Source of the DNA: Halanaerobium saccharolyticum
GTDB taxonomy: Bacteria > Bacillota > Halanaerobiia > Halanaerobiales > Halanaerobiaceae
Length of the DNA stretch: 40,149 nt
Assembly: GCF_004362045.1 (NCBI RefSeq)
Contig: NZ_SNWX01000029.1
Coordinates: forward strand, 1-40,149
Reading direction: 5' to 3'
Under the pieces are notes generated by a model. The model did not search any database. It saw only the letters and a list, made by a program, of their open reading frames with translations, and had not been told where the DNA came from. How positions within the stretch are numbered: the stretch's first letter is position 1; every line of letters begins with the position of its first letter. Shown piece after piece: positions 2,767 through 33,595 of the stretch. The position numbers and the translations under genes are program-made.

Positions 2767-4731
2767 TTATTTTAAAGCAGCTTCGATTTTTTCTACAACT
2801 TTTTCTGCTTTAAATCCTAGTTCTTCTCCAACTTCCTGACCTTTACCACTTAAACCAAAGCGGTCAAGACCAATAACTAATCCATCTCTACCAACAAGCC
2901 TATACCAGCCGTCTGTTACTCCAGCTTCGATAGCCACTCTTAATTTAACTTCAGGTAGATCATGTTCGGCTGCATATTTTTCCAGCTTTCTTCTTTCTGG
3001 TACTGACATTACAGCAGCTTTGATTCCCTTTTCTGCTAATAACTTTGCACTCTCTTCTGCCAGATTAACTTCACTTCCACTGGCAAAAATAATTGTATCA
3101 GCATTTTCAGGATCAGAAACAAAATATCCTCCATTATTAAATTTATCAAGTCCCTGATATTTTTCAATATGCTCTAAGTTCTGTCTGGTTAAAATTAAGG
3201 CTGTTGGCTGATCTGTTGTTTCTAGTGCTTCTACCCAGGCAGCTTTTGCTTCTTCCTCATCTCCGGGTCTTAAAACTTTAAGCCCTGGAATAATTCTTAA
3301 AGCTTCAACATGTTCTACCGGCTGGTGAGTTGGTCCATCTTCTCCAACAAAAATAGAATCATGGGTAAAGACATAAATTACAGGCTCTCTCATGATAGCA
3401 GCCAGTCTAATTGAAGGACGCATGTAGTCAGAAAAGACTAAGAAAGTTGCTGCAAAAGGCCTTAGACCCTGATGCAGGGATAAACCATTTGTAATAGCTC
3501 CCATTGCATGTTCTCTGACTCCAAAACGGAAGTTGCGGCCAGAGTAATCTCCTTTTTGAACCTCTCCATACTCTCCATTGTAGGTTTTAGTGGAAGGAGC
3601 AAGATCTGCTGATCCACCTACTAAATATGGTACAAGTTCAAAGGCTTTAGATAAAGCTGCTCCTGCTGATTTTCTACTTGCTATTGGAGCCTCAATTTCT
3701 AAGTCCATAATTTCTTCTTTTAAATCTACCGGAAGCTTTAATTCCATTGCCTGATCCCATTCTTTTTTCAGTTCGGGATTGGCTTTAGCCCAATTTTTAA
3801 ATTCTTTTTCCCATTCCAATCTCTGATCCTGCATCTCAGCAGCACGGGAGCGGAAAAATTCTTTTACTTGATCGGAAACATAAAACTTCTCATCTACTGG
3901 CAGACCAAATTTTTCTTTTAAACCTTTAATTTCATCTTCTCCCAGAGGTGCACCGTGAGCATCAGCTGTATCCTGCTTATTTGGTGCTCCTAAAGCAATA
4001 TGAGTTTTTGCCATAATTACTGTTGGTCTATCTTTGTCAGATTTAGCCTGATCTATTGCTTCTCTAACTTTGTCAATATTATGTCCATCTACATTTTCTA
4101 TTACCTGCCAGCCAAATGCTTTAAAACGATCAGCTACAGATTCTGTAAAGGCTAGGCTAGTATTTCCGGCAATGGAAATATTGTTATCATCATAAATTGC
4201 AATTAACTTATCCAGACCCAGATGACCTGCCAGTGAGGCTGCTTCTGATGTTATACCTTCCATCATACAGCCATCACCCATAATAGTATAGGTGTAATGG
4301 TCTACAATATTGTGCTTTTCTGTATTATATTTTTCTGCTAACATTTTTTCTGCCAGTGCCATACCAACAGCATTTCCAAAGCCCTGTCCTAAAGGTCCTG
4401 TTGTGGTTTCTACTCCGTCGGTATCTCCCTTTTCTGGATGGCCTGGAGTATTAGAATGAAGCTGTCTAAACTCTTTGAGATCATCCATCGAAATGTCATA
4501 TCCTTTTAAATGTAAAAATGAGTACAAAAATGCTGAACCATGTCCTGCTGACAGTACAAAGCGATCTCTATTAGGCCAGTCTGATTTTGATGCATCTAAG
4601 TTCATTACCTCTCCAAATAATAATGCTCCAATATCAGCACAGCCAATTGGCATTCCTGGATGTCCAGAATTTGCCTTTTCTACTATGTCTGCCGCTAAAC
4701 CTCTTACTGTATTCGCAACTTCTTTTAGCAA
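2767..4731 (-). CDS. tkt: Transketolase
   Basis: Thiamine-diphosphate enzyme that transfers two-carbon ketol units between sugar phosphates in the non-oxidative pentose phosphate pathway. The protein is full length (654 residues). N-terminal SGHPGMPIGCADI, the TPP/metal motif GDGCMMEG, the pyrimidine-domain GEDGPTHQPVEH and the C-terminal domain are all present. It starts at a TTG at 4731, decided by a strong GGGAGGG site seven bases upstream; no better ATG exists. It is a single-gene unit, with rpiA of the same pathway about 27 kb away in this window. A perfect inverted repeat lies about 60 bases upstream and may be an operator. Confidence 0.96.
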   Translation of the reverse strand: MLKEVANTVRGLAADIVEKANSGHPGMPIGCADIGALLFGEVMNLDASKSDWPNRDRFVLSAGHGSAFLYSFLHLKGYDISMDDLKEFRQLHSNTPGHPEKGDTDGVETTTGPLGQGFGNAVGMALAEKMLAEKYNTEKHNIVDHYTYTIMGDGCMMEGITSEAASLAGHLGLDKLIAIYDDNNISIAGNTSLAFTESVADRFKAFGWQVIENVDGHNIDKVREAIDQAKSDKDRPTVIMAKTHIALGAPNKQDTADAHGAPLGEDEIKGLKEKFGLPVDEKFYVSDQVKEFFRSRAAEMQDQRLEWEKEFKNWAKANPELKKEWDQAMELKLPVDLKEEIMDLEIEAPIASRKSAGAALSKAFELVPYLVGGSADLAPSTKTYNGEYGEVQKGDYSGRNFRFGVREHAMGAITNGLSLHQGLRPFAATFLVFSDYMRPSIRLAAIMREPVIYVFTHDSIFVGEDGPTHQPVEHVEALRIIPGLKVLRPGDEEEAKAAWVEALETTDQPTALILTRQNLEHIEKYQGLDKFNNGGYFVSDPENADTIIFASGSEVNLAEESAKLLAEKGIKAAVMSVPERRKLEKYAAEHDLPEVKLRVAIEAGVTDGWYRLVGRDGLVIGLDRFGLSGKGQEVGEELGFKAEKVVEKIEAALK

Positions 4732-4856: not shown

Positions 4857-4885
4857 AGAGTTAATTTAAAGCTTAAATTAACTCT
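4857..4885 (-). terminator. Hairpin at end of EamA gene
   Basis: A perfect stem, GAGTTAATTTAA (4858-4869) and TTAAATTAACTC (4873-4884), with a three-base loop overlaps the stop codon of the EamA gene. Only a short T-run follows on the minus strand, so termination strength is uncertain. Confidence 0.5.
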
Positions 4886-5777
4886 AAGAGCTTTTTAGCT
4901 TGCTCTGCTTCCGCTTTTGATGGTTATTGTAAACTGAAGCCAGATAAATACCTCCCAGAATAAAAGCTCCCCCAAAAATTGTTGTTAGTCGAACGGCCTC
5001 ATTTAACAGCAGCCAGGCCAAAAATGTAGTTATAATTGGTTCTCCCAGAATTGATAGTGATACAATTGAAGTTGATAAATAGCGCACTGCAAAATTAAGT
5101 ATTGAGTGTCCGATTAAGGTTGGACCAACTGCCAGAGCTAAAAAGATTAGATAATTATTTAAACCATAGCCACTAAAGGATAGATCAAAAAAATAAACCC
5201 CTATTCCTAAAAATAAAGCAGCATAACTATATAAAATATATAAATAGGGAAAATAGTCAAGCTTTTTGCGTACGCCTCTGCCAATAAATAAATAAGAAGA
5301 AGCAAATAAAGCTGCCGAAAGGGCCAGAAAATTACCAAATAGCTTATCTCCCAGCTGATAAAAATCTCCAATACTGATAATTGAACTTCCAATTAAAGCC
5401 ATGATAATTCCAATAACTGCCCCTTCTTTTAAGTCCTCTCTGGCAAATAAATACTCCAAAATAATTGTAAATAGCGGCTGCATCGCTACAAAAATAACTG
5501 AATTAGATATATCAGTATATTGAATTGAACTGATCCATAATATAAAATGAACTGCCAGGAGAAAACCGACCACGATTGGTCGGTAATCCAGAAAATAACG
5601 AAGCTTACTTCTGTGTTTAAAAAAGAAATAGGGGCTGAGAAGCAGCACAGTTAAAAACATTCTATAAAAGGCAGTTATCAGCGGTGGGGCAGTGGCTATT
5701 TTAATCAGTATTCCAGAGAGCGATAAAAAGAAAATCCCTACCGCAAGCAGAATATATATTTTTTTCTTATAATCCAT
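4884..5777 (-). CDS. EamA/DMT family transporter
   Basis: An integral membrane protein of 297 residues with about ten hydrophobic helices arranged as two EamA repeats, typical of the drug/metabolite transporter superfamily. The final helix is followed by a short basic tail (HQKRKQSK). These proteins usually export or import small metabolites such as amino acids, and the substrate cannot be read from the sequence. It is the last gene of an operon with the GH65 phosphorylase, 16 bases downstream of it. An AGGTG site precedes the ATG. Linkage to a sugar phosphorylase may hint at a metabolite link, but that is inference only. Confidence 0.88.
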   Translation of the reverse strand: MDYKKKIYILLAVGIFFLSLSGILIKIATAPPLITAFYRMFLTVLLLSPYFFFKHRSKLRYFLDYRPIVVGFLLAVHFILWISSIQYTDISNSVIFVAMQPLFTIILEYLFAREDLKEGAVIGIIMALIGSSIISIGDFYQLGDKLFGNFLALSAALFASSYLFIGRGVRKKLDYFPYLYILYSYAALFLGIGVYFFDLSFSGYGLNNYLIFLALAVGPTLIGHSILNFAVRYLSTSIVSLSILGEPIITTFLAWLLLNEAVRLTTIFGGAFILGGIYLASVYNNHQKRKQSKLKSS

Positions 5778-5793
5778 CTATCACACCTGCTTT

Positions 5794-8127
5794 TTAAATT
5801 TCTAATTCCTGGCACAAATTACTTTCTTCCAGAACAACTAGTTGATCATAGTGCTTAAATTCTACCTTTTCTCCAGCTAGTAACATATATTTTGCTTCAT
5901 TTTCTTTAACTGTTACCTCTATCTGACTTCCTTTAAAACGCAGTCTAAACTGATATTTATCCCAGCCATCAGGTAAATGCGGATGGAAATAAAGCTTATT
6001 ATTAAACATTCTCATTCCGGCAAATCCCTGTACCAGAGCCAGCCAGGTACCACCCATACAGGCAGTATGAACCCCCTGATAAACATTTTCGTTAAAATCA
6101 TCTAAATCAAGTCTTGCTGTCTGCATAAAATAATTATAGGATTGATTCTTATAACCAATTTCAGAAGCCAGTATACTATAAATAGCCGGAGACAGGGAAG
6201 AATCATGAGTAGTTTTAGGTTCATAATAGTCATAATTTCTAATTTTTAAATCTCTGCTAAATTGATCTCCTAACTGCAGCATCAATAACAAAACATCAGC
6301 CTGTTTTATAACCTGATAGCGCCAGATTATAAGAGGATGCCAGTTTTTAACTAAGGGCAGTTCCGCTTCCGGTATATTATCTACTTCAATGGGGTTTTTA
6401 TACAGAAATGAATCATCCTGAGGTGTTATTTCTAATTCCTCATTATATGGTAAATAAATATCTTCAGCAACTTCACGCATCCTATCAATTTCGTTATCGG
6501 TTAAATCAATTTTTTCAGCTACTCTTTTATATTTTTCTGGAGATTTATCTTTAATAATCTCAGCCATTTTAATAGCAATATCTAGATTAAACTTTGCCAT
6601 ATAATTTGTATAAGCATTATTATTTACACCAGGCTTATATTCGTCAGGACCACACACTTCATTAAAACAAAATTTATTATCACGCATAGGAATATAACTA
6701 CCCAGGCTGAGCCACATTCTGGCAGTCTCAATTAATATCTCCAGTCCGTAATTTTCCATAAATTCCTGATCTCTACTCACCTGATAATACAAATTAACTG
6801 CATAAGCAATGTCAGCATTAATATGATACTGCACAGTGGATCCCATAAAAAAACCAGAAGCTTCTTCTCCATTTATTGTCCGCCAGGGATATAAAGCCCC
6901 ATTGAGTCGCATCCGATCAGCATTTTTCTTTGCTTTATCCAGGGTATTATAACGGTACAGCAGTAAATTTCTTGCCACTTCGGGCCGTTGAAAAGCAAAA
7001 AACGGAAGAATATAACTCTCCGTATCCCAGAAATAATGACCTTCATAATGTTCGCCACTAATCCCCTTAGCTGCAACGCTTGTCTGGCCATCTTTTCCAG
7101 CTGCCTGCAGGATATGAAAAGCATTAAATCTAAAGGCCTGCTGTAGAGCTTCGGCACCTTCAATCTTTACATCTACATCCTGCCAGTAACCAGACATGAA
7201 CTCTGCCTGTTCTTCTACTAAGTTTTCAAAACCAGTAATTGATGCCCTGGCTACTGAAGCTCGAGCAGCACTCAGAGGATTTTCCGCTTCTTCCTTACAG
7301 TGATTTATACCAACAATTTTATCAATTGTATATTCTTCACCTTCCACAGCACTAATCTCAAAAATCCAGTCAATTCGATTATCTGAAGATCTTTTACTGA
7401 TTTCACAATTGTCTTTCGAATATTCATCTAACAAATGTTCCACTACATAGGCAACCTTAAAATTGCTAGTTTTAACTTTATGTAAGAGATGACCAGTATT
7501 AGTATCTGTTTTACTTTCGATGACCTCCAGAGCCCTTTTTTCTCTGAGATTATGATGATTTCTTACATCACCATTCAAAGCAGAATTAACACTAATTTTA
7601 CCGGAAAAATTAATTGCTTTAAACTGATATCTTATTGCCCCAATATGTTCTCGACTTAAGGAAATTAAGCGGGTGATTTTTATTTCTATTTTTCTTCCCT
7701 GACGATCTTCCCAGATTATCTTTCGGCGCAGGAGCCCCTGTTTTAAATCAAGTTCTCGTTTATAATCATGAATTTTACCTTTTAACAAATTTAGTTTTTC
7801 TTCATTAATATATAAATTTATTTCGCTCCAGTCGGCAAGATTGACAATTGTCTGCCCTTTTTGAGGAAGATTTGGCGCCTCTTCTCCATAAATTATTTTT
7901 TCTGAAGCATAAACTCCATTAATATAAAAACCAGGAGTTGTAGTATCTTCACTACCGGGATAATCTTCTTCAAGAGTTCCTCTTAATCCCATATAACCAT
8001 TCCCTAAAGAAAATATGGCTTCATTATGGTGATTTGTATTAATTAGAAATTCCTGTTCAGTGATTTTCCATGGTTGATAAGGGTAAAGTGCTTCCTTATC
8101 AAGCTTTTTTGCATGATATTTTCTCAC
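5794..8127 (-). CDS. Glycoside hydrolase family 65 disaccharide phosphorylase
   Basis: A full-length GH65 enzyme (777 residues) that would split an alpha-linked glucose disaccharide with phosphate, giving beta-glucose 1-phosphate by inversion. Visible landmarks are FWDTE at about 366-370, the catalytic acid in GPDEY (Glu about 496) followed by VNNNAYTNYMA, KQAD at 608-611, and THDSS at 640-644, a conserved region near the phosphate site. The specific substrate (maltose, trehalose, kojibiose or nigerose) cannot be assigned by eye. There is no signal peptide, so it is cytoplasmic. It lies 21 bases downstream of the P-loop/Asp23-like gene and upstream of EamA. No beta-phosphoglucomutase or sugar ABC transporter lies nearby, although both often accompany GH65 genes. 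Confidence 0.92.
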   Translation of the reverse strand: MRKYHAKKLDKEALYPYQPWKITEQEFLINTNHHNEAIFSLGNGYMGLRGTLEEDYPGSEDTTTPGFYINGVYASEKIIYGEEAPNLPQKGQTIVNLADWSEINLYINEEKLNLLKGKIHDYKRELDLKQGLLRRKIIWEDRQGRKIEIKITRLISLSREHIGAIRYQFKAINFSGKISVNSALNGDVRNHHNLREKRALEVIESKTDTNTGHLLHKVKTSNFKVAYVVEHLLDEYSKDNCEISKRSSDNRIDWIFEISAVEGEEYTIDKIVGINHCKEEAENPLSAARASVARASITGFENLVEEQAEFMSGYWQDVDVKIEGAEALQQAFRFNAFHILQAAGKDGQTSVAAKGISGEHYEGHYFWDTESYILPFFAFQRPEVARNLLLYRYNTLDKAKKNADRMRLNGALYPWRTINGEEASGFFMGSTVQYHINADIAYAVNLYYQVSRDQEFMENYGLEILIETARMWLSLGSYIPMRDNKFCFNEVCGPDEYKPGVNNNAYTNYMAKFNLDIAIKMAEIIKDKSPEKYKRVAEKIDLTDNEIDRMREVAEDIYLPYNEELEITPQDDSFLYKNPIEVDNIPEAELPLVKNWHPLIIWRYQVIKQADVLLLMLQLGDQFSRDLKIRNYDYYEPKTTHDSSLSPAIYSILASEIGYKNQSYNYFMQTARLDLDDFNENVYQGVHTACMGGTWLALVQGFAGMRMFNNKLYFHPHLPDGWDKYQFRLRFKGSQIEVTVKENEAKYMLLAGEKVEFKHYDQLVVLEESNLCQELEI

Positions 8128-8148: not shown

Positions 8149-8961
8149 TTATTCATTAACTTTTAAAGAATAAATTTCAATATTAATTTCTTTAACATTG
8201 ATACCTGTATTATTTTCTAAGTGTTCCTTTAATAATTTCTTAAATTTATTAATATATTTAGGTATTTCCAGGCCATAATTGACTTCTAACGAAAGATTCA
8301 AAAATAATTGATTGCTAATTTCATCTACTTTTACCTTCTTATAACCGGTAATTTCATCAAATTGAGCAATTAAATATCTAATTAAATCAACCAGAACTCT
8401 GTTGCTAATACTTAAGTTTCCAAAAAAACTAAATCTAGGTCTGACAATACTTTTTTCATGTCTGACAGTTTTATTGTCCTTTTTAAAAAAAAGATCTAAT
8501 GAATGCAGCAAATAGCCGGAAAAATCCTTTTCAACTTCAATAGTAGGTACCGGGATTACATGTTTACCTTCATTATTCCTGACTGAGAGCGCTTTTTCTA
8601 TTTCCTCGGAGGATGAAATATCTTCAATATTAATATATTGATCAATCCCTCCCAGTTCCAGCCTTTCATTAATTCGCTCTACCATTCCCATCGAAGTACC
8701 TAAAATCAATATTTTATCTTCATCAATTTTTTTTAAACACTCTCTAACTTCTCTAGTCTGTTTTTCATCGAAAAATAGGGCTCTTCTGATGGCCCCCATT
8801 TTACTTTCTTCCCTTTTGGCAGAACTTCCGGCCATAATTTTACCAGCATATATTAAAAGTCCATCATCAACTATTAATGGAATCTGATACTTATTTGCCA
8901 GCAAAACTGCTCGGTGACTTTTGCCTGTTCCACTGGGTCCAACAAGAGCATATACTTCCAT
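8149..8961 (-). CDS. P-loop NTPase fused to Asp23/Gls24-like domain
   Basis: A 270-residue protein with two parts. The N-terminus is a nucleotide-binding domain with Walker A GPSGTGKS at residues 8-15, a possible Walker-B-like strand at DKILILGTS (about 82-90), and VDDG at 31-34. Residues about 180-266 resemble the Asp23/Gls24 alkaline-shock family: a start like GNLSISNRVLVDLIRYL, a central strand pair reading LSLEVNYGLEIPKYI, and an end like NNTGINVKEINIEIYSL. No transmembrane segment or signal is seen. It is the first gene of the GH65 operon, behind a strong promoter. Its function is not known to me; an ATP-dependent envelope-stress or regulatory role is speculative. The domain calls are by pattern, the P-loop being firmer than the Asp23 match. 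Confidence 0.75.
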   Translation of the reverse strand: MEVYALVGPSGTGKSHRAVLLANKYQIPLIVDDGLLIYAGKIMAGSSAKREESKMGAIRRALFFDEKQTREVRECLKKIDEDKILILGTSMGMVERINERLELGGIDQYINIEDISSSEEIEKALSVRNNEGKHVIPVPTIEVEKDFSGYLLHSLDLFFKKDNKTVRHEKSIVRPRFSFFGNLSISNRVLVDLIRYLIAQFDEITGYKKVKVDEISNQLFLNLSLEVNYGLEIPKYINKFKKLLKEHLENNTGINVKEINIEIYSLKVNE

Positions 8962-8991: not shown

Positions 8992-9018
8992 ATATAATCG
9001 ACTTCAGGTTGATTATAT
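8992..9018. promoter_or_regulatory. Palindromic operator candidate over GH65-operon promoter
   Basis: ATATAATCGAC (8992-9002) and GTTGATTATAT (9008-9018) form 11-base arms with one mismatch around a five-base spacer. The palindrome covers the -10 box of the promoter at 9012-9040, which is a typical repressor position. The regulator is not in the window as far as I can tell. Confidence 0.5.
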
Positions 9019-9040
9019 ATTTTTTTAGAGATAATTTCAA
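9012..9040 (-). promoter_or_regulatory. Promoter of P-loop/GH65/EamA operon
   Basis: On the minus strand TTGAAA (9035-9040) and TATAAT (9012-9017) are 17 bases apart, close to the sigma-A consensus. Transcription would start near 9005, about 45 bases before the start codon at 8961. It lies just after the carbamate kinase gene, so the operon can be expressed independently of arcC. Confidence 0.7.
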
Positions 9041-9094: not shown

Positions 9095-10033
9095 TTAATT
9101 TTTATTTTTTCTGATGATTGTTCCTGCTTCTCCTCTGACAGCTGCTGTTACCTGATCCAGAGATGTAATAACAGCTTTTTTACCACCTTCTCTGACAAAT
9201 TTAACTGCAGATTCTACCTTCGGAGCCATACTTCCCTTTCCAAACTGTCCTTCTGCCAGATGTTTTTCGATTTCAGAAATGCTGACTTCTTTTAAAGCTT
9301 TTTCCTCAGCTGTCCCATAATTAATCATTACATTGTCCACATCTGTTAATATCAAAAAGAAATCTGAGTTAGTATTTTGTGCTAAAATACAGCCGGCCCT
9401 ATCTTTATCGATTACCGCTTCTATTCCTTTAAACCCATCTTCTTTTTCAACAACAGGAATACCGCCTCCTCCTGCTGCAATGACAATTCTATTTTTCTCT
9501 ACTAAATCATTAATCAATTCTTTTTCCATAATTTTAAGCGGCTCTGGTGAAGGAACAACTCTTCTCCAGCCACGGCCGCTGTCTTCAATCCATTTTTCAC
9601 CATTTTCTCTTTCCTGTTTTAAGGCATGTTCTTGCTTAAAAAACGGTCCCACTGGTTTTGAAGGCTGCTTAAAAGCAGGATCATCTTCAGCAACCAGCAC
9701 CTGGGTTACTACTGAGGTGCTGTGTATATTTATATTTCTATCTTTAAAAACATTTAAAAGACTATTTTGAATCATATAACCAATAAAGCCCTGAGTCTGA
9801 GCTCCACAAAAATCCAGGGGCAGAGCCGGAATCTCAATTGAAGAAGCCTGCTGTAATAGTATATTCCCAACCTGAGGCCCATTACCATGAGTGATAACAA
9901 TCTCATGTCCTGCAGCTGCCAACTCCCCAATCTGCTGACAACTTTGATATACATTGGCCATTTGTTCGTCTGCTTTCCCCTTTTGTCCGGGTTTTAAAAT
10001 TGCGTTTCCTCCTAAAGCGATTGTAAGTCTCAT
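9095..10033 (-). CDS. arcC: Carbamate kinase
   Basis: Catalyses carbamoyl phosphate + ADP to ATP + carbamate, the energy-yielding last step of arginine, agmatine or purine-derived carbamoyl phosphate fermentation. Family motifs seen include the N-terminal LGGNAIL, THGNGPQVG, the central AAGGGGIP, and LTDVDNV; the 312-residue length is normal for the amino-acid-kinase fold. The ATG at 10033 has a GGAGG site eight bases upstream. It is unaccompanied: no arcA (arginine deiminase), carbamoyltransferase or arginine/ornithine antiporter flanks it, so the source of carbamoyl phosphate is not shown by context. A short hairpin with T8 follows near 9061-9085 and may be a weak terminator. Confidence 0.94.
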   Translation of the reverse strand: MRLTIALGGNAILKPGQKGKADEQMANVYQSCQQIGELAAAGHEIVITHGNGPQVGNILLQQASSIEIPALPLDFCGAQTQGFIGYMIQNSLLNVFKDRNINIHSTSVVTQVLVAEDDPAFKQPSKPVGPFFKQEHALKQERENGEKWIEDSGRGWRRVVPSPEPLKIMEKELINDLVEKNRIVIAAGGGGIPVVEKEDGFKGIEAVIDKDRAGCILAQNTNSDFFLILTDVDNVMINYGTAEEKALKEVSISEIEKHLAEGQFGKGSMAPKVESAVKFVREGGKKAVITSLDQVTAAVRGEAGTIIRKNKN

Positions 10034-13679: not shown

Positions 13680-14285
13680 TTAAAATAAACCAAGCTGACA
13701 TTTAACTATCTTTACCTCCTGCTCTTTTATAACCTTACCAACCTGGCCCACCGACATTTTAAGTAGATCGGCCAGTAGAAAAGCCTGATTACAGGTCATT
13801 TTTTCTGGCTGAATTATAAATGGTAAATCATATAGTTTACCGGCTGAAAGAAGAATATTGGTATTTATTTTTACATTGGCCCTGTTTTTTACCATTTTTG
13901 CTGACTCCTTCTCCGGTTCATCATTATTTTCTAAATAAAAGAGTAAATCAGGATTCAAAAAATTAATAATTGTATTTCCTTCAATAAAAAGTCTCTCTAT
14001 ATCATCATCTAATAAATTACGGGCCAGCTGATAAGCACTTGGCAGTTCTGCAGCAGGACTTTCTAAAAGTATTACTTTATCTGCACCATGCTCAACAACC
14101 CTTGCTGTATCAGTGCCTGCCTGATTAATCACCTTAGGATCGTTAATCACCTTATATTGGTCAAGTTCATTATCAATCGATGTCTTAATGACCGCAGTTT
14201 TGGGACCGCTGTCTTCCAACATTAAGGAAATTAAAGTCGTCTTACCTGCCTTACTGGCAGATGCACTGACTCCTATCATTTCCAT
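13680..14285 (-). CDS. MobB-like P-loop protein
   Basis: A 201-residue P-loop protein resembling the MobB family, which assists molybdopterin guanine dinucleotide formation. The loop SASASKAGKTTLI lies at residues 7-19, followed by the family-like pattern of an IKTSID strand, a D-x-A-R-x-VEHGADKV segment and ILLESP. Residues after about 105 (including KINTNILLSAGKLYDLPF) are less familiar. It is the last gene of the cofactor cluster, 165 bases after the MOSC gene, with its own AAGGAGG site. A CACCA-ATTAA-TGGTG inverted repeat (14342-14356) lies upstream. Assignment to MobB rests on the P-loop and context, so another cofactor-insertion GTPase is possible. Confidence 0.65.
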   Translation of the reverse strand: MEMIGVSASASKAGKTTLISLMLEDSGPKTAVIKTSIDNELDQYKVINDPKVINQAGTDTARVVEHGADKVILLESPAAELPSAYQLARNLLDDDIERLFIEGNTIINFLNPDLLFYLENNDEPEKESAKMVKNRANVKINTNILLSAGKLYDLPFIIQPEKMTCNQAFLLADLLKMSVGQVGKVIKEQEVKIVKCQLGLF

Positions 14286-14450: not shown

Positions 14451-14891
14451 CTAATTTAAAATTTCTATTTTATCTCCTGCCTTAATCTCGCCACCTTTAA
14501 TCACTCTTGCAAAAACCCCTTCTCTGGGCATTACACAATCCCCAATGGCCTCCATAATCTCACAGTCATGGTGACATTTTTTTCCAATCTGTGTAATCTC
14601 CAGCAGAATTTCGCCGTTGATTCTTAATTTTTGACCTACGGGCAGCTGAAATAAATTTTCTATTCCTTCGGTTGTTATATTTTCTGCAAAGTCACCAAAA
14701 TTCAACTCATAACCCTGACCACGCATTTTGTCAATACTGGTCTCATCCAGGAGGCTGAGCTGTCTGTGCCATTTTCCGGCATGGGCATCACCTTTAAGAC
14801 CAAATTCTTTAATCAGTTCACCTTTTGTTATTACTTTTTTAGTTGTTCCCTTTTCTTCACTTAGACAGACGGCTTTTACTTTTGCTTCCAT
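14451..14891 (-). CDS. MOSC domain protein
   Basis: A stand-alone MOSC domain (146 residues) of the kind linked to molybdenum cofactor sulfuration or sulfur transfer. Motifs seen are GLKGDAHAGKWHRQLSLL near the N-terminal third, FGDFAENITTEGI, and PREGVFARV near the end. Cysteines cluster in KKCHHDCEIMEAIGDC and could carry sulfur. The ATG at 14891 is preferred over a GTG at 14900 because AGAGGTG lies six bases before it. It follows the mogA/moaB gene by 17 bases. MOSC proteins beside MoaC/MogA are common in anaerobic Firmicutes, but the acceptor enzyme is unknown. Confidence 0.87.
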   Translation of the reverse strand: MEAKVKAVCLSEEKGTTKKVITKGELIKEFGLKGDAHAGKWHRQLSLLDETSIDKMRGQGYELNFGDFAENITTEGIENLFQLPVGQKLRINGEILLEITQIGKKCHHDCEIMEAIGDCVMPREGVFARVIKGGEIKAGDKIEILN

Positions 14892-14908
14892 TTGCTGCAC
14901 CTCTTAAC

Positions 14909-15442
14909 TTAATTTTTATGGTTGGGCTGATGTTCGGTAATTTCTCCTTTTAAAATTTTTACCGCATGGGGTAAAATATCAATCACTGCCTGCAGACATT
15001 CTCTGACCGCTTTCGGACTACCTGGAAAATTAATGATTAAAGTTTTATCTCTAATCCCGGCTCTGGCGCGTGATAAAGCAGCCAGAGGAGTGATAGAAAT
15101 TGTATCAGCTCTAATTTTTTCTGGAATTCCAGGCACTTCTTTTTTTATAACCTCTAATGTAGCTTCAGGAGTAATATCTCTTTCTGCAAAACCTGTTCCC
15201 CCTGTGGTTAAGATCAGATCTGCAATTTTTTGGTCAGCTATTTTAATTAAGGCTTTTTTAATCTCCTCTTTTTCATCAGCAATTATTTGTTCATAAACTA
15301 TTTTAGACCCTATATCTTCCATCATCTCTTTAAGTACAGGACCACTTAAATCTTTTCTGACACCCCGGGAACCCTTATCGCTAATTGTTAAAACCGCAGT
15401 TCTTATTTTAAAGTTATTATTCTTCTCGCTCATAAATCCCAC
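14909..15442 (-). CDS. MogA/MoaB family molybdopterin adenylyltransferase
   Basis: A MoCF-fold protein of 177 residues that activates molybdopterin with AMP before metal insertion by MoeA. Motifs TISDKGSRG near residues 19-27, DLSGP, GGTGFAERDITPEAT and NFPGSPKAVRE are typical. The GTG at 15442 has GGAGG five bases upstream, so it is chosen over the ATG at 15433. The gene overlaps the end of moaC by 26 bases, indicating tight coupling. MogA and MoaB cannot be told apart here. Confidence 0.9.
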   Translation of the reverse strand: MGFMSEKNNNFKIRTAVLTISDKGSRGVRKDLSGPVLKEMMEDIGSKIVYEQIIADEKEEIKKALIKIADQKIADLILTTGGTGFAERDITPEATLEVIKKEVPGIPEKIRADTISITPLAALSRARAGIRDKTLIINFPGSPKAVRECLQAVIDILPHAVKILKGEITEHQPNHKN

Positions 15443-15896
15443 TCTTTCCTCCAGCTTTATAGATTAATTTAATTCTGCCAATTTCCATTGATTTATCAAC
15501 TGCTTTTGCCATATCATAAATTGTAAGTGCCGCTAAGTTAACGGCTGTTAGAGCTTCCATTTCAACACCGGTCTGACCGCTATTTTTGACCTCTGCTTCA
15601 ATTTTTATTTTATCTTCAAAATCAAGATTAAAATCAACTTTGATACTGCTTAAAAACAGGGGATGGCACATTGGAATTAAATCAGAAGTTTTTTTGGCTC
15701 CTGTTATCCCGGCAATTCTTGCAGTTTCAATTACAGCTCCTTTTTCTATGTTTCCATCTTTAATCATCATTAAAGTTTCCGGCTTCATTTTAATTTCACC
15801 AATTGCACGGGCAGTACGCTGAGTAATTTCTTTATCTGAAACATCTACCATCTTTACCTTACCATCCTGATCTAGATGAGAAAATTCTTTTTCCAT
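15417..15896 (-). CDS. moaC: Cyclic pyranopterin monophosphate synthase
   Basis: Together with MoaA it converts GTP to cyclic pyranopterin monophosphate, the first step of molybdenum-cofactor synthesis. The 159-residue protein carries the active-site segments SDLIPMCHPL (Cys77, His78) and GVEMEALTAVNLAALTIYDM...KAVDKSMEIG. It starts eight bases after moaA; its GGAGG site lies within the last codons of moaA, twelve bases from the ATG. It overlaps the mogA/moaB gene. Confidence 0.96.
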   Translation of the reverse strand: MEKEFSHLDQDGKVKMVDVSDKEITQRTARAIGEIKMKPETLMMIKDGNIEKGAVIETARIAGITGAKKTSDLIPMCHPLFLSSIKVDFNLDFEDKIKIEAEVKNSGQTGVEMEALTAVNLAALTIYDMAKAVDKSMEIGRIKLIYKAGGKSGIYEREE

Positions 15897-15904
15897 TTCT
15901 ATTT

Positions 15905-16864
15905 TTAGCCTCCGATCTGGGACATATTTCTGCTGTATTTTTGATTTTCAAAATTAAGATTATGACAGACAGGTTTGAGGTCAAGTGCCTTTTTATAAGC
16001 AGCCTCTATTTCTTTTTTATTCATCCCGGAGATTTTTATTTCCTGATTACCGGCCAGACAGGGTTTGAATTTACCATCTGCAGTCAGACGCAGACGATTA
16101 CAGCTGCTGCAGAAGTGTTCACTCATTGCCGAAATAAAACCAATAGTTCCCTCAGCTCCCTGCAGTTTAAAATAAGTGGCAGGACCGTTTCCTGTACTGA
16201 CAGCAGGCAGCAGCTCAAAGCTTGCCTGAATTAAATGTTTTATTTCACTGCTGCTGATAAATTTTTCTGCTTCAGCTTCTCCACCAAGAGGCATATATTC
16301 TATAAATCTGATACTTAACTTTTCACGCCTGCTTAATTCAACAAAATCAAATATTTCATCATCATTGATTCCCTTCATTACAACAACATTCAGTTTAACT
16401 GGTTCCAGTCCGACTCTTAAAGCAGCTCTGATACCTTTTAAAACTTTAGCCAAGTTATCTCTACGGCTAATTTCTTTAAATTTTTGGGGATCAAGTGTAT
16501 CCAGGCTGATATTAATGCGCTGCAGACCAGCTTCTTTTAATTTTTTAGCCTTTTCAGCAAGTAAAACTGCATTTGAAGTCATAGAAATATCCTCTAATCC
16601 AAGCTTATTTAGCTTAGAAACAAAATCTTCTACACCCAGTCTGACTAAAGGCTCACCACCTGTAATTCTCACCTTTTTAATACCCAATTCAATACCAGTT
16701 TTAACTATTTTCAAAATATCTTCATAACTTAAAATATCCTGATGATTTTTGTTTTCTACTCCTTCGGCCGGCATACAGTAGCGGCAGCGAAGATTACAGC
16801 GGTCAGTTATTGAAATTCTTAAATAATCTATTTCTCTGCCCAGACGATCATTTAAATTCTGCAT
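15905..16864 (-). CDS. moaA: GTP 3',8-cyclase (radical SAM)
   Basis: A radical-SAM enzyme that forms 3',8-cyclo-GTP. The N-terminal cluster ligands Cys23, Cys27 and Cys30 (CNLRCRYC) and the C-terminal cluster ligands Cys252, Cys255 and Cys269 are all present, as is RITGGEPL. The C-terminal diglycine needed for activity is intact: the protein ends SQIGG. Length 319 residues. It is 14 bases after the moeA-PBP gene with a GGGAGG site, in the cofactor operon. Confidence 0.97.
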   Translation of the reverse strand: MQNLNDRLGREIDYLRISITDRCNLRCRYCMPAEGVENKNHQDILSYEDILKIVKTGIELGIKKVRITGGEPLVRLGVEDFVSKLNKLGLEDISMTSNAVLLAEKAKKLKEAGLQRINISLDTLDPQKFKEISRRDNLAKVLKGIRAALRVGLEPVKLNVVVMKGINDDEIFDFVELSRREKLSIRFIEYMPLGGEAEAEKFISSSEIKHLIQASFELLPAVSTGNGPATYFKLQGAEGTIGFISAMSEHFCSSCNRLRLTADGKFKPCLAGNQEIKISGMNKKEIEAAYKKALDLKPVCHNLNFENQKYSRNMSQIGG

Positions 16865-32974: not shown

Positions 32975-33595
32975 TTGACACTGGATACTAGAACTCATAA
33001 AATGTTGGCTTATAAAATCCATGATCATTTTGCAAAAAATGGTGTCTGGCTTTCCAAAATGGCGTTAGCCTGGGGAAGTATGAAACCGGATTTTATTGAA
33101 GGAAAAATAAGTCACTTTAAAGATGAAACTATAGAAGACTTTTATCAACAATTTGATAAATTAAAGGAAATGGACCCAGACCAAACCCCTTATCGTTTCG
33201 CTGTTATGCTGGGAGAACTATTTCATTATATTGCAGATTATTTCTGCAGAGCTCATAATGATCCTGAACTTAATCCAGGAACACTGTGGGAAAAAACAGT
33301 TCACATTTTTCATGAATGGCAATTAAATCAACATGCCAAAAATTTACATCCAGATTTTTTTAAAAAAGAACTTGAAGAAAAATTTGTTTATAAAAATGAT
33401 CTGGAGACTTTTATTGAAAAAGAACACGCAGCATTTTTAGATAGAGATTATAGTTTTGAAAATGATCTCGCTTCAGCTTTTAGAATTTCTGTTTTAATGA
33501 CAAATAAGCTGATTTATGAGATGCAGTTAGAAGAAAACTATGCTTTTGCCCATGTTTTTAATTTAAGGCATCGTCTGCTCTATCAGAATGCATAA
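32975..33595 (+). CDS. Zinc-dependent phospholipase C family protein
   Basis: A 206-residue protein with the histidine pattern of the zinc-dependent phospholipase C fold: an early RTHK, GSMKPDF, GELFHYIADYFCRAHND, and HIFHEW. No signal peptide is visible, unlike secreted phospholipases, so it is probably a cytoplasmic member of this broad family with unknown substrate. The start is unsure: the TTG at 32975 lies only two bases after GGGAGG, whereas a CTG at 32981 would have an eight-base spacing. A promoter-like TTGCTA, 17 bases, TATTAT precedes it. Monocistronic. Confidence 0.78.
   Translation: MTLDTRTHKMLAYKIHDHFAKNGVWLSKMALAWGSMKPDFIEGKISHFKDETIEDFYQQFDKLKEMDPDQTPYRFAVMLGELFHYIADYFCRAHNDPELNPGTLWEKTVHIFHEWQLNQHAKNLHPDFFKKELEEKFVYKNDLETFIEKEHAAFLDRDYSFENDLASAFRISVLMTNKLIYEMQLEENYAFAHVFNLRHRLLYQNA

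Follow-up and report, generated by a model that had tools for sequence, protein, structure and literature searches.

Results

A P-loop domain and an Asp23-like domain in one gene

A minus-strand gene at positions 8149..8961 of the window, the 40,149-nucleotide stretch of Halanaerobium saccharolyticum DNA analyzed here, raises the question of whether a P-loop domain is truly joined to an Asp23/Gls24-like domain in a single protein, what such a protein might do, and whether it heads an operon with the GH65 gene next to it, as a sequence-only reading of this DNA had proposed. The 270-aa coding sequence, with an ATG start, is supported by the list of open-reading frames and by relatives and is present as a single copy in all 14 genomes of the family. 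Its N-terminal domain comprises residues 1–165 (8467..8961, the strand being minus for this and all other features of the gene), as delimited by models, fold search, and conservation, with low confidence for the last ~ 40 residues, and carries a Walker A P-loop (GPSGTGKS, residues 8–15; 8917..8940). The C-terminal Asp23/AmaP-like domain comprises residues 181–267 (8161..8421), as delimited by Pfam PF03780, hhalign, and a model with pLDDT of about 80–92. The proposed joining of the two domains was borne out by the Walker A motif, by a Pfam score of 36.9 bits for PF03780, and by the presence of both domains in 108 of 108 aligned relatives.

The gene is preceded by a carbamate kinase gene (9095–10033) and followed on the same strand of the window, after a gap of 22 bp, by a gene for a GH65 glycoside phosphorylase-type enzyme with three GH65 Pfam domains (5794..8127, minus), then by an EamA-family permease assigned by Pfam (4884..5777, minus) and a transketolase (2767–4731, minus). 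The nearest solved structures to the GH65 protein are kojibiose and maltose phosphorylase, and it scored under the NCBIfam cut-offs of both models that it matched. Upstream of the ATG, a promoter-like site (TTGAAA-17-TATAAT; 9012..9040, minus) is assigned by an 11/12 match to a sigma-70-like consensus alone, and promoter-like sites around the gene showed no excess over shuffled sequence (19 found and 20.8 expected).

Other genes in the window drew attention in passing. An ORF of 201 aa that begins much like a P-loop (SASKAGKTT) lies beside fabH-fabD-fabF (13680–14285, minus) and gave no Pfam match at E ≤ 0.001; a similar gene, also of 201 aa, precedes fabH in another three loci of Halanaerobium (L009, L011, and L042). 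Molybdenum-cofactor genes stand in a row at 14451–16864 (minus), encoding a MOSC domain, MoCF_biosynth, MoaC, and a MoaA-like radical SAM protein, and the product of 32975–33595 (plus) matches the Pfam model for zinc-dependent phospholipase C (43 bits, cut-off 26.8).

The fusion is fixed and widespread

Of 299 genomes sampled from the phylum, 127 carry full-length relatives; 137 had a match, ten of them to the Asp23 part only. Full-length copies are present in 33 of 59 genomes of the class, 28 of 38 of the order Halanaerobiales, and 14 of 14 of the family. Rather than being confined to Halanaerobiales, the fusion is spread over the phylum. The remaining matches in the class begin at residue 157 or later and so cover nothing but the Asp23 part; no P-loop domain lacking the tail was seen there. 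The 108 aligned relatives are the window protein, those of seven close loci, and 100 fetched from the 126 other genomes with full-length copies; since eight of these loci are the window and its close relatives, one genus is over-represented. An alignment of 60 of the 108 sequences (A2) served for the counts out of 60 given below. With both domains retained throughout this set, the two-domain fusion is real and fixed, and full-length relatives in 127 genomes take it far beyond chance. No relatives were found in phages or viral contigs, and one plasmid record, from Monoglobus, carries a homolog.

Several associations with gene content were examined. A link to sporulation was rejected: Spo0A was detected in 257 of 299 genomes, and at least eight fusion-bearing genomes are among the Spo0A-negative ones listed (G029, G046, G071, G092, G109, G144, G145, and G158), with 22 further Spo0A-negative genomes outside those listed. 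HPr kinase (69 of 299 genomes) did not evidently track with the fusion when compared by eye. In a 61-genome set, 29 of the 30 genomes with the fusion also have a canonical Asp23 gene, the exception being a genome 78% complete; because Asp23 genes are near-universal in this set (60 of 61), this co-occurrence says little.

The tail belongs with Asp23 and AmaP

Residues 206–265 match Pfam Asp23 (PF03780) at 36.9 bits, above the cut-off of 28, as do 57 of 60 relatives at E ≤ 0.01. In hhalign comparisons, the tail aligned with the profile of 29 Asp23 proteins from the phylum at 98.5% over 87 columns, spanning Asp23 positions 1–105 and therefore the whole domain, with one gap, at an Asp23 loop of 18 residues that is missing from the tail. 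AmaP, which is likewise loop-less, matched best of all profiles (98.9%, 96 columns); against the NCBIfam model for AmaP, NF033218, the protein scored 21.6 bits, under the cut-off of 55. These probabilities come from single pairs and are not calibrated database E-values, so comparisons between families serve as the control. Profiles were built from the seed loci kept for each family (MiaA 28/30, shikimate kinase 28/29, CDF 28/30, HPr kinase 30/30, Asp23 29/29, cytidylate kinase 29/30, and adenylate kinase 29 of 29–31 candidates); the last MiaA match and further Asp23 and kinase matches without a locus were excluded.

The AlphaFold model, predicted from the window protein and seven close relatives, gives residues 187–267 a confident α-β-β-α-β fold. 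Together with the Asp23-like profile, this lets the two-domain reading withstand the structural objection foreseen for it, a C-terminal half predicted to lack the Asp23 fold. No solved structure that matches the Asp23 protein of this genome by sequence, and could serve as a reference for the fold, was found. In a tree, AmaP (98/98) and Asp23 (99/91) form separate branches, with the fusion proteins placed between them and poorly resolved; the tree was computed from 36 of the 108 fusion sequences, one in every three, and its bootstrap values had yet to converge. The tail belongs with Asp23 and AmaP. Relative to the Asp23/Gls24 family (PF03780; Staphylococcus aureus Asp23, Bacillus subtilis YqhY, and YloU), it is homologous over the whole domain, and the protein differs by the missing loop and the added N-terminal P-loop domain. 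To our knowledge, the B. subtilis and S. aureus members of the family are small and have no P-loop domain, and the short Asp23 ORFs of the 61-genome set are consistent with this. Compared with AmaP, the Asp23 membrane anchor, the protein shares the loop-less Asp23-like C-terminal domain and has a P-loop domain in the place of the transmembrane part at the AmaP N-terminus. The AmaP-like protein compared here has predicted membrane segments and is encoded next to the main Asp23 gene in 30 of 30 loci, those of this genome and 29 others.

The tail model is also close in fold to the dimerizing C-terminal domain of CDF transporters (ZT_dimer, PF16916), with Z 10.8 and an rmsd of 1.8 over 78 residues. 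Membership of the tail in that family was rejected, as the sequence relation is weak (54–56%) and profiles favor AmaP and Asp23 by far; the transporter part of CDF proteins is also absent. Profiles of the AmaP-like proteins (L142–L170) aligned with ZT_dimer at 76–77% over 58–59 columns. A remote kinship between the Asp23/AmaP-like domain, here residues 184–269, and the CDF C-terminal domain is possible.

The N-terminal domain resembles several P-loop families and is assigned to none

At least 17 positions of the N-terminal domain are invariant among the relatives, including K14, S15, D32, D33, K49, S90, R128, and H134; P137 is also invariant. Within the Walker A motif, G8, G11, G13, K14, and S15 are found in 108 of 108 sequences. 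The DDG motif that follows the second strand (residues 32–34; 8860..8868), likewise present in all 108, is a candidate magnesium or substrate site. A GTS motif (residues 88–90; 8692..8700), with T89 in 107 and S90 in 108 sequences, ends the next central strand, and a further segment holds R128, H134, and P137 (8551..8580). Mean pairwise identity, from 1500 random pairs with the seven close-relative loci excluded, was 0.51 for residues 1–140 and 0.26 for residues 180–267. The N-terminal domain is thus twice as conserved as the tail, as expected for an enzyme joined to an adaptor, and this conservation, with the invariant residues, suggests that it is probably a working enzyme.

What kind of enzyme this may be was approached through fold and profile comparisons. 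The model of the domain is of moderate quality (mean pLDDT 61, pTM 0.58, residues 117–167 under 50). Its best Foldseek matches, to shikimate, gluconate, and adenylate kinases, are weak (E of 5e-3 or worse), and with VIA the top match to this moderate model was a GPN-loop GTPase followed by adenylate kinases, again with weak scores (Z ≤ 7.6). The predicted fold class appears nearest to that of the AdK, CMK, and SKI kinases, the best Foldseek rows among them; scores against these families are weak and alignments short or at the level seen between families. No acidic Walker-B-like residue follows strand 83–88, and the invariant DD pair comes after the second strand. These features would suit a P-loop protein of the kinase/transferase type, and suit ATPases of the ABC or AAA kind less well. 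The earlier suggestion of a kinase or ATPase is plausible. Pfam and NCBIfam scans returned no dedicated model for the domain.

The longest good profile alignment was to MiaA (149 columns, 94%), with the P-loop, D33, and a GxSAK segment in register with MiaA motifs; D33 falls in line with the catalytic aspartate of MiaA. Pfam IPT (PF01745) also matches residues 1–62 (24.0 bits, cut-off 20) and 17 of 60 relatives at E ≤ 0.01, and the P-loop, aspartate, and GxSAK-type segment are common to the domain and the MiaA/isopentenyltransferases (PF01715 and PF01745). These data are the grounds for an alternative in which the domain is a shortened MiaA/IPT prenyltransferase whose P-loop binds prenyl diphosphate, not ATP, and which modifies adenine or another acceptor. 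Control pairs of different P-loop families scored much the same, however (MiaA with cytidylate kinase 95% and with shikimate kinase 92%), so the MiaA match is not clearly above the level between families. The C-terminal half of MiaA and its tRNA-binding insertion have no counterpart in the protein, the alignment stopping at about column 190 of 340, and the same genome has a separate MiaA gene. We therefore regard a prenyltransferase as quite improbable and, since the MiaA score is no better than those of the inter-family controls, describe the region as a kinase-like P-loop domain without assigning a family. Kinship with HPr kinase/phosphorylase (PF07475) was also rejected: the P-loop/DD spacing is suggestive of the HPr kinase motif, yet just 31–45 columns align locally, with nothing beyond the P-loop/DD region. 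The N-terminal domain resembles nucleotide and shikimate kinases and MiaA, and could be placed in none of the families tested.

Gene neighborhoods vary among lineages

Genes of the neighboring loci were called with a simple longest-ORF script, which makes errors, chiefly in GC-rich genomes. Of the 108 loci, nine have a GH65 gene within four genes of the fusion, and these nine come from a single family out of 54. In the nine Halanaerobium loci, the order of fusion gene, GH65, and EamA is kept on one strand with gaps to GH65 of up to 37 bp, and this shared order is what speaks for a disaccharide-phosphorylase operon in which the protein would be a regulator or helper of the GH65 enzyme and the permease. 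Even in two sister genera, other genes intervene and GH65 lies further on, and relatives elsewhere have unrelated neighbors. Because the adjacency is limited to one family, the GH65 operon was rejected as a functional unit; GH65 is a lineage-specific neighbor outside the mechanism, the EamA permease is lineage-specific as well, and a role for the protein in a disaccharide-phosphorylase operon is very unlikely. The partnership proposed by the sequence-only reading thus fell to variable neighborhoods.

The commonest neighbors elsewhere are dnaD-like and dnaC-like genes, which stand no more than four genes away in 33 of 108 loci (a count that includes two doubtful loci, L098 and L103) from 16 of 54 families. 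They are either co-directional, in the order fusion gene, dnaD, dnaC with gaps of 4–28 bp in several loci, or divergent. Co-directional loci include L048, L054, L055, L058, L063, L074, L083, and L108, and the divergent arrangement is found in other lineages. An aminotransferase gene lies within four genes in 23 of 108 loci, and neighbors confined to single lineages include a YmdB/PHP cluster, a MazF-type gene, GAPDH, a GH18 protein, and pyruvate:ferredoxin oxidoreductase subunits. A same-strand gene within 60 bp is present downstream in 38 of 108 loci and upstream in 32 of 107. No general neighbor was found across the 108 loci.

Discussion

We observed that the protein has two domains, that this architecture is fixed, that residues resembling an active site are invariant, and that the tail is related to Asp23 and AmaP. 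On this basis we favor a reading, at a probability of roughly 40%, in which the protein is a phosphate-transferring or nucleotide-switch enzyme whose fast-evolving Asp23/AmaP-like tail docks it to Asp23-type partners. The N-terminal domain would bind a substrate that carries phosphate, ATP or some other nucleotide being the likeliest; D32 and D33 may be placed to hold magnesium or the acceptor, and the domain would transfer phosphate or act as a nucleotide switch. The tail may be the dimerizing and docking part and would carry the enzyme to partners of the Asp23 type close to the membrane. AmaP anchors Asp23 at the membrane in S. aureus and Asp23 forms filaments (PMC6954212), and in B. subtilis, YqhY restrains acetyl-CoA carboxylase, by the inference of the authors (PMC5437119). 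Against the docking enzyme stand the moderate model of the N-terminal domain (pLDDT 61) with its weak fold matches, the lack of support for an envelope or lipid role from any conserved gene neighbor, replication genes being the most frequent, and a poorly conserved tail that would equally suit a loose structural role.

Neighborhood evidence is better for another reading, in which the protein is a nucleotide-dependent factor linked to replication, acting with DnaD and DnaC, and the tail serves for oligomerization or membrane attachment. Proximity to dnaD/dnaC recurs in 16 families and two orientations, yet 75 of 108 loci, that of the window included, have neither gene within four genes, two of the 33 positive loci are doubtful, the gene order may have come down from an ancestor and been retained by chance, and 172 of 299 genomes lack the fusion gene, all of which leave a replication factor unlikely in our judgment. 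Alternatively, the protein could be a non-catalytic scaffold whose P-loop senses ATP/ADP or GTP and so regulates the assembly of Asp23-type filaments. Filament formation by Asp23, as reported in PMC6954212, and a tail from the Asp23 superfamily accord with such a scaffold, but the invariant K49, S90, R128, and H134 outside the P-loop suggest catalysis over sensing, and we consider it just as unlikely as a replication factor.

A literature search of open-licence papers returned, among the matches listed, no report of a P-loop/Asp23 fusion. The Monoglobus plasmid homolog bears the NCBI name 'Asp23/Gls24 family envelope stress response protein', which indicates that the tail is already known and that the head has no name; given the identities of 0.51 and 0.26, the part named in the database is the variable one and the unnamed part the conserved one, and the name overlooks the enzyme half. 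In the docking-enzyme reading, the fusion could add one more branch to the Asp23 superfamily, next to Asp23 and AmaP, in the form of an undescribed P-loop kinase or transferase riding on the Asp23 layer under the membrane, a picture that we offer as possible though doubtful. What Asp23 does at the molecular level is, according to PMC6954212, still unclear. A conserved Asp23 relative with an apparent active site offers a handle on that function and, if the picture of a kinase or transferase on this layer is true, the enigmatic Asp23 layer would have a catalytic member in a large part of the phylum.
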